A DNA stretch of 64,000 nucleotides from an uncultured bacterium. Its GTDB lineage: Bacteria > Cyanobacteriota > Vampirovibrionia > Gastranaerophilales > Gastranaerophilaceae. Both the position numbers and the translations under genes were made by a program. Below the pieces are notes generated by a model, which had not been told where the DNA came from, searched no databases, and was given only the letters and a program-made list of their open reading frames with translations. The stretch spans positions 326,539 to 390,538 of the forward strand of contig CATLLN010000001.1 in the NCBI GenBank assembly GCA_950022695.1, written 5' to 3'. Shown here in pieces: positions 6,128-7,025 of the stretch. The stretch's first letter is position 1; every line of letters begins with the position of its first letter.

Positions 6128-6157
6128 AAAAAGCCCTTCATTAATGAAGGGCTTTTT
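6128..6157 (+). terminator. Terminator after the NhaD/ArsB-type gene
   Basis: A perfect inverted repeat AAAAAGCCCTTCATT / AATGAAGGGCTTTTT ends in five T. Confidence 0.9.
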
Positions 6158-6197
6158 GTTATAATACAATATGTTGTTTAATAAAAGGAGAGAAATT

Positions 6198-6982
6198 ATG
6201 AAATTAACAAACGAATTAAGAAAGCGGGGGGGGGTAACTGCTTAAAGCTTATTTTAGGCGTTTTTGAGCTATCTCCTAAAAAAGCATTTACCTTGTCAGA
6301 AATTTTAATTACCCTTGGTATCATCGGTGTTGTTGCCGCAATAACTATACCTGGGCTTATGACAGCTTATAGAAGAATCGCTTATCCTATACAATTAAAA
6401 GCTATTTATAGTAAACTTCTTGTGGCTCAAAAGACTTTAAATGATGAATATGGAAATCCGGAAGATTGGACATTTACCAATTATGTTACAGATTCTGATG
6501 ATAGATATAATCTTGAAATTTTTAAAAGATATGCAACAGAACTTTCGGCGATATCTACTAGAGACAGAGGAAATTATGACTATTTTGAAAATGGTTTATC
6601 TCCATCTGCTATACTTTTGAATGGGCAACCTGCGAAAAATATTTCAGGCTGGGCTTCAGGTGCATATCTTTTTGAAGGACATCATTGCCGTAGTATGCAG
6701 CTAAAAAATGGAGCAGTAATAGTTATGTATTTTGCTCAGGGGACAGCAGGTGCAGTAATGTGGCCGTTGATTAAGAAAAAAATGTATGCGGCGTTTTTGA
6801 TAGATATTAATGGTGCAGCTAAGCCTAATATTGTAGGACGTGATATATTTGCTTTTGGCTTGAAAGGTGGCTCTACATCAATAGTTCCATATATGGATGA
6901 TACATCAGATTGTAATAAGCAAGGTGCGGGGTTATCGTGTTCAAGAAAAATTATTCAAGATGAATGGAAAATGAATTATTAA
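6198..6982 (+). CDS. Prepilin-like protein, out of frame at a G9 tract (possible phase-variable gene)
   Basis: A strong ribosome binding site (AAAAGGAGAG) precedes ATG at 6198. That ATG reads 15 codons, MKLTNELRKRGGVTA, and stops at 6243-6245, just past a run of nine G at 6226-6234. In another frame the sequence continues NCLKLILGVFELSPKKAFTL and then the classic pilin helix SEILITLGIIGVVAAITIP, up to the stop at 6982 (about 250 residues in all). Seven or ten G would join the two halves (RKRGGNCLKL with seven). The mature part resembles type II/IV secretion pseudopilins, with Glu at position 5 of the helix and a variable Cys-containing C-terminal domain. As written the gene is OFF. Either slipped-strand phase variation or a miscounted homopolymer would explain it. 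Confidence 0.8.
6226..6234 (+). repeat. G9 homopolymer tract inside a coding region
   Basis: Nine consecutive G in an otherwise AT-rich genome, placed 28 bases after the ATG of the prepilin gene. Its length decides whether that gene is in frame: 7 or 10 G is on; 8 or 9 G is off. Confidence 0.9.
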
Positions 6983-6986
6983 ATAT

Positions 6987-7025
6987 AAAAAAGAGTATTT
7001 TGATAAAAATCAAAATACTCTTTTT
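6987..7025. terminator. Bidirectional terminator between convergent genes
   Basis: A stem of GAGTATTTTGAT with ATCAAAATACTC is flanked by A-rich sequence on the left and T5 on the right. It serves the prepilin gene (+) and the SLH gene (-). Confidence 0.88.

Follow-up and report, generated by a model that had tools for sequence, protein, structure and literature searches.

Layout of the locus

In the window, that is, the whole stretch of 64,000 nucleotides analysed here, the locus at 6198-6982 raises the question of how a well-formed prepilin can be produced from a start codon that lies in a different reading frame. Direct reading of the sequence bore out the layout given in the initial annotation: the ATG at 6198 leads into nine G (6226-6234) and then to a TAA at codon 16, and the pilin frame, offset by -1 from the ATG, runs uninterrupted from the tract to a TAA at 6980-6982. 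Seven or ten G join the two frames, as had been claimed. The proposed rarity of such tracts was confirmed as well, G9 being expected 0.01 times per window upon dinucleotide shuffling.

6128..6157: inverted repeat with T/A runs, resembling an intrinsic terminator, at the end of the upstream permease gene
6160..6165, + strand: TATAAT, a possible and tentative -10 box without a good -35 (direct reading)
6185..6192, + strand: Shine-Dalgarno sequence AAGGAGAG (direct reading)
6198..6225, + strand: leader of 28 nt, the ATG plus 25 nt (MKLTNELRK + C)
6226..6234, + strand: poly-G tract of nine G, proposed switch site
6227..6982, + strand: frame encoding the prepilin (251 codons and the stop), offset by -1 from the ATG
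6235-6237, + strand: TAA of the third frame, directly 3' of the tract (direct reading)
6243..6245, + strand: TAA closing the ATG frame at codon 16 (direct reading)
6272..6277, + strand: TCTCCT, complement of the Shine-Dalgarno AGGAGA (6186-6191), possibly a pair that sequesters the ribosome binding site
6278..6346, + strand: prepilin cleavage and methylation motif KKAFTLSEILITLGIIGVVAAIT (profile matches)
6988..7025: hairpin resembling an intrinsic terminator, 3' of the prepilin

Because the upstream permease gene has a terminator-like end, we regard the prepilin gene as a transcription unit of its own, and since terminator-like hairpins flank it on both sides, as a single-gene unit. The TATAAT at 6160..6165 was absent from the output of the promoter consensus scan. 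From the upstream stop to the pilin motif, the -1 frame contains no in-frame ATG, GTG or TTG.

The encoded prepilin is under purifying selection

Judged by its sequence, the product of the window gene is a predicted type IV prepilin with an N_methyl domain and a GFxxxE class III signal. The protein downstream of the tract scored 22.8 bits against Pfam N_methyl (PF07963, cut-off 21.2) and 22.4 bits, likewise above the cut-off, against NCBIfam TIGR02532. It carries KKA/FTLSEILITLGIIGVVAAITIPGL (direct reading) and shows a basic leader, G/A before F, a hydrophobic helix and E at +5. Beyond the N-terminal helix, the protein matched little in profile libraries or among solved structures.

In 13 orthologous pilin pairs, mostly copies in the OFF state, dN/dS was 0.09-0.26, with a value of 0.16 for the window gene and its orthologue in the related genome G027. 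Translation of the frame downstream of the tracts is therefore frequent enough to preserve it, and a pseudogene reading is ruled out by this purifying selection.

Poly-G tracts in the genome of the window

The assembly from which the window is taken (G000) contains 22 runs of nine or more G, each of exactly nine; runs of exactly eight, or of ten or more, do not occur in this genome, the 44 overlapping matches returned by a G8 query corresponding to the same 22 tracts. Eighteen of these sit 27-28 nt after an ATG, with an intact prepilin in the -1 frame; the leader measures 28 nt at 17 loci and 27 nt at one (L011). A nineteenth prepilin (L080) combines a 29-nt leader with G7 and is also offset by -1, so that the same offset is kept by three leader/tract combinations, 28+9, 27+9 and 29+7. 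All 19 tract-bearing prepilins are OFF. A Shine-Dalgarno sequence and ATG lie just 5' of the tract at all 18 prepilin-linked G9 loci and at the G7 locus, and alternative in-frame pilin starts are absent from the fused G9 genes, barring two long linkers that contain weak internal codons. Linker length from tract to pilin motif varies widely, yet the offset is constant, which suggests that the frame relation of tract and pilin is under selection. Altogether, the genome holds 76 N_methyl matches, and most of the others are tractless prepilins, mostly with an ordinary start beside the motif.

The remaining four G9 runs lie away from prepilins. One (L017, G000 C1:594771) corresponds to an in-frame C9 within an opposite-strand gene, one (L028) precedes a truncated pilin fragment, and two (L021 and L023) are located in or near other genes. 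The counterpart of L023 in the congener G001 (L094) has the same tract. Both L017 and L023 again show the motif CGGGGGGGGGTAAC, although neither is a prepilin start. Prepilins with a doubled N-terminal motif (FTLAEVLAGRGN..PVFSKAGFTLAEVLITLG) were seen at G000 C2:549270-549404, C5:111509 and C6:44630, an arrangement resembling the insertion of a second pilin start.

The leader-tract module recurs in relatives with variable tract length

With a pattern of GGAG, ATG, 20-34 nt, C and G8, whose reversed control gave near zero matches, the leader-tract module was found, at up to about 67 copies per genome, in 73 of the 192 Gastranaerophilales genomes. These represent 19 of the 45 genera of the order, and nearly all belong to one family. 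The same motif is present on contig C15 of G007 and on MOYD01000015.1. When compared among relatives, as the initial annotation had proposed, the tract is not fixed, its length differing between species and between paralogues. Across homologues it ranges from 7 to 13, and some copies are in frame. The usual tract in congeners is 8 (G023, G027), 9 (G001, G014), 9-10 (G009) or 11 (G007), within a range of 8-12, and other genera carry tracts of 8-13. Orthologous pilins can differ, with G9 in the window's genome and G11 or G10 in G001; the G027 orthologue of the window gene, 78% identical, has G8 behind a 29-nt leader and is OFF by one.

A single leader length may also carry different tracts. In G001, the 28-nt leader is followed by 8, 9, 10 or 11 G, with mixed states; tracts are likewise mixed behind the 27-nt leaders of G081 (10/11) and G148 (8/9/10), and the 29-nt leader of G092 is found with 12 and 13. 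Slippage around a resting length biased towards OFF is expected to produce such mixing of lengths and states within one leader length. The leader sequence itself is species-specific. Orthologous mature pilins are 80-90% identical, and their leader and linker flanks are often much less alike. This suggests homogenisation or exchange of the 5' module within genomes, and homogenisation within species could account for the uniform lengths per genome.

This recurrence bears on the homopolymer miscall that had been put forward in the initial annotation as the main alternative, according to which one G is missing from the assembled tract and the gene is really in frame. Homopolymers are error-prone, every tract in the window's genome is reported as exactly nine, and published Bifidobacterium G-tract lengths differed from deep sequencing (PMC9187656). 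However, the out-of-frame state appears in many independent assemblies, in some at only G8 and in both directions, and recurrence across genes and genomes rules out an error at a single site. In addition, A/T runs fall off smoothly (629, 166, 35 and 5 for lengths 6-9 in 237 kb). There is therefore no sign of an assembly length cut-off, and homopolymer truncation in the assembly of the window was rejected. Given the recurrence, a miscall is very weak as a general explanation, and we consider an assembly or base-calling error very unlikely.

Further observations were made in the same set of genomes. Three paralogous non-pilin proteins of G060 with signal-peptide-like starts (L122, L104 and L191) carry tracts of 12, 9 and 10, two of them being out of frame and one in frame. 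Long linkers (L285-L304 in G148 and G201; L032; L309-L334) consist of translated dispersed repeats that keep the frame, including CHPELVSGS, VILNLIQDL, HPEAKPKDLKRFF and similar ones. Many contigs end about 100 nt or less from a poly-G tract (G023 C1, C2 and C3; ends in G014 and G001); short-read assemblies thus seem to fragment at the repeated leader modules, so that true copy numbers are probably higher.

The in-frame state is depleted

We defined the state of a copy by the reading frame of the pilin with respect to the ATG and summed it over 179 fused copies, those within one genome not being independent. About 16 of the 179 were in frame, where one third would be expected under random phases. 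One more G is needed in 114 copies (-1 offset) and one fewer in 49 (opposite offset), the latter being the state of most copies in G007, G145 and G157. The in-frame state was never the commonest in any of the 14 genomes that have at least five fused copies, for which the probability by chance is about (2/3)^14 = 0.003, or less extreme when close relatives are allowed for.

The dominance of the -1 offset, preserved in the window's genome by three leader/tract combinations, is also consistent with programmed slippage. Here, RNA polymerase or the ribosome would slip on the G-run, -1 by design, and every cell would make a fixed small share of full-length product. Uniform tract length in the window's genome, the strong depletion of the in-frame state and intact mutS/mutL all favour this explanation. 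Slippage site and offset are fixed in the window's genome but not across homologues, where the tract lengths given above come with all three offsets. The opposite offset, found in about a quarter of the copies, would not be served by -1 ribosomal frameshifting, and in-frame copies exist. Moreover, no RNA structure that could stimulate slippage was conspicuous, mean folding z being -0.6 to +0.8 across genomes with at least two loci, and a product made at low yield would hardly need a strong ribosome binding site. Slippage by RNA polymerase is best known from A/T runs, which again counts against it. We regard programmed slippage as the main rival to slipped-strand switching, but as unlikely.

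Slipped-strand phase variation probably explains the locus

In our assessment, the window gene is probably a phase-variable type IV prepilin, one of 19, that is controlled by a slipped-strand poly-G switch. Its ribosome binding site and ATG would drive translation of a basic leader of nine codons into the poly-G tract, the length of which would be altered by one G through slipped-strand mispairing during replication. With nine G the gene would be OFF, the ribosome stopping within a few codons, and with ten or seven G it would be ON, with read-through into the complete prepilin. Full expression in ON cells would account for the strong Shine-Dalgarno sequence and ATG. At the usual tract length, ON cells would form a minority, and each cell would make few of the many pilins. 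Three steps of this account are inferences: the change of tract length through slippage during replication in populations, production of the pilin by ON cells, and its arrival at the surface.

Phase variation had already been proposed in the initial annotation, and the present data uphold it in part. It is supported by the recurrence of the module, the length differences, the in-frame copies and the purifying selection, whereas the uniform G9 and the OFF state of all copies in the window's genome speak against it. As in contingency loci, the tract is long enough to slip and far longer than expected by chance, and gain or loss of units joins the frame of an intact gene. Variation in length was found among homologues but not among the 22 G9 tracts here, and 22 of 22 tracts of nine or more being exactly nine is too uniform for rapid independent slippage. 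Intact mutS and mutL in all congeners checked count against simple random switching, and the in-frame depletion counts against random phases. Loss of mismatch repair was rejected as a source of the tracts, mutS1 and mutL being intact.

Unfused modules and a possible RNA-level switch

Not all modules are fused to their pilin. In G075, and at 8 of 30 loci in G157, a short ORF is followed by a hairpin and then by a prepilin with its own Shine-Dalgarno sequence and ATG. The hairpin has a T-run in G157 and in most G075 copies, and the pilin motif lies about 156-224 nt past the tract. Stop codons close two of the frames in the first 20 nt or so, and the third usually extends to or into the hairpin; an open frame of this size is not rare.

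These loci would fit a switch at the level of RNA, in which the tract and the sequence 3' of it would govern access to the ribosome binding site or a terminator, and the frame would matter only through the site where the leader ribosome stops. A terminator-like hairpin stands between module and own-start prepilin at 25 of 25 aligned unfused loci of G075 and at 8 of 8 of G157. Sequence complementary to the Shine-Dalgarno is often found 3' of the tract (complementarity 13.3 compared to 10.5 in shuffles), and own pairs exceed species-swapped pairs modestly (permutation p about 0.006, 16 genomes). If real, such a pairing might tighten the OFF state, as a ribosome stopped at the tract would free the complement to cover the ribosome binding site. 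The window gene, however, is fused, with neither a separate start nor a terminator in its linker. Folding of the tract region is not unusual, and promoter-like sequence, read by eye, follows the hairpin in G157. A known riboswitch or leader RNA was rejected, since no Rfam family reached its gathering score in the module, and the one match above it was an RNase P at another position in one locus. The G075 linker likewise gave no support for coding conservation; it shows no codon-position signal, third-codon positions being not more variable. As an explanation of the window gene, a switch at the RNA level thus appears highly improbable.

A broader version of the slipped-strand switch, which we consider doubtful but possible, holds that across the Gastranaerophilales one exchangeable 5' module (Shine-Dalgarno, ATG, short leader, poly-G, immediate off-frame stops and Shine-Dalgarno complement) has spread over tens of prepilins per genome. 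It would act by frame fusion and, where unfused, by attenuation at a terminator further 3', with default lengths tuned to about one pilin per cell and hence a near-exclusive repertoire.

Relation to known phase-variable systems

A close parallel is found in Bifidobacterium breve UCC2003 (PMC9187656), also a gut commensal, in which a G-tract early in a pilin gene splits two frames that one-base changes join. Deep sequencing of that pilus locus showed ON/OFF switching with mixed tract lengths, and the ON length was enriched in mice (PMC9187656). There, the tract resides in the first operon gene of sortase pili, with one or two clusters per genome, whereas here type IV-like prepilins are concerned, encoded by scattered genes in the numbers given above. 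In Streptococcus gallolyticus Pil1 (PMC3894217), a run of GCAGA pentamer repeats changes in length within a short leader ORF 5' of the pilin, as was shown experimentally for this single locus. A terminator lies behind its leader ORF, an arrangement shared by the unfused modules of G075 and G157, which resemble a Pil1-like attenuator in form; the window gene, by contrast, is fused and not attenuated. Neisseria pilC (PMC5953494) likewise combines a homopolymer tract in a type IV pilus gene with ON/OFF frameshifting. PilC modulates pilus retraction and assembly and is present in one or two copies, while here the prepilins themselves, a large family, carry the tract. The Campylobacter phasome (PMC6321876) is similar in that poly-G contingency loci, most often nine G long, occur throughout the genome. 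It covers many different genes, and in the larger data set the ON share was near the neutral-drift prediction; here, one gene family uses one shared leader module per species and the ON state is strongly depleted.

The mechanism is known, and the lineage, target family and scale appear to be new. The initial annotation knew of no description in this lineage, and our search of papers open without subscription found none linking phase variation with Gastranaerophilales; the one match for Melainabacteria concerned flagellin diversity. Phase variation is known mostly from pathogens. Here, uncultured gut commensals probably switch a large set of surface fibres on and off at random. In this non-photosynthetic branch of the cyanobacteria, which is found in animal guts, as many as about 67 genes per genome appear to encode poly-G-switched pilins. 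Such a poly-G repertoire is on a par with, or larger than, those described in Neisseria and Campylobacter, although it is restricted to one gene family. Commensal surface diversification, and whether OFF-biased tract lengths limit the pilins shown per cell, become testable.

Annotation pipelines will call tract-bearing pilin genes truncated or miss their starts. The public MAG JAMPCZ01 (NALB_7821b_15), labelled Muribaculaceae, contains about 30 modules (L227-L260). Since the matching genome G014 falls in the genus of the window, this label looks wrong.
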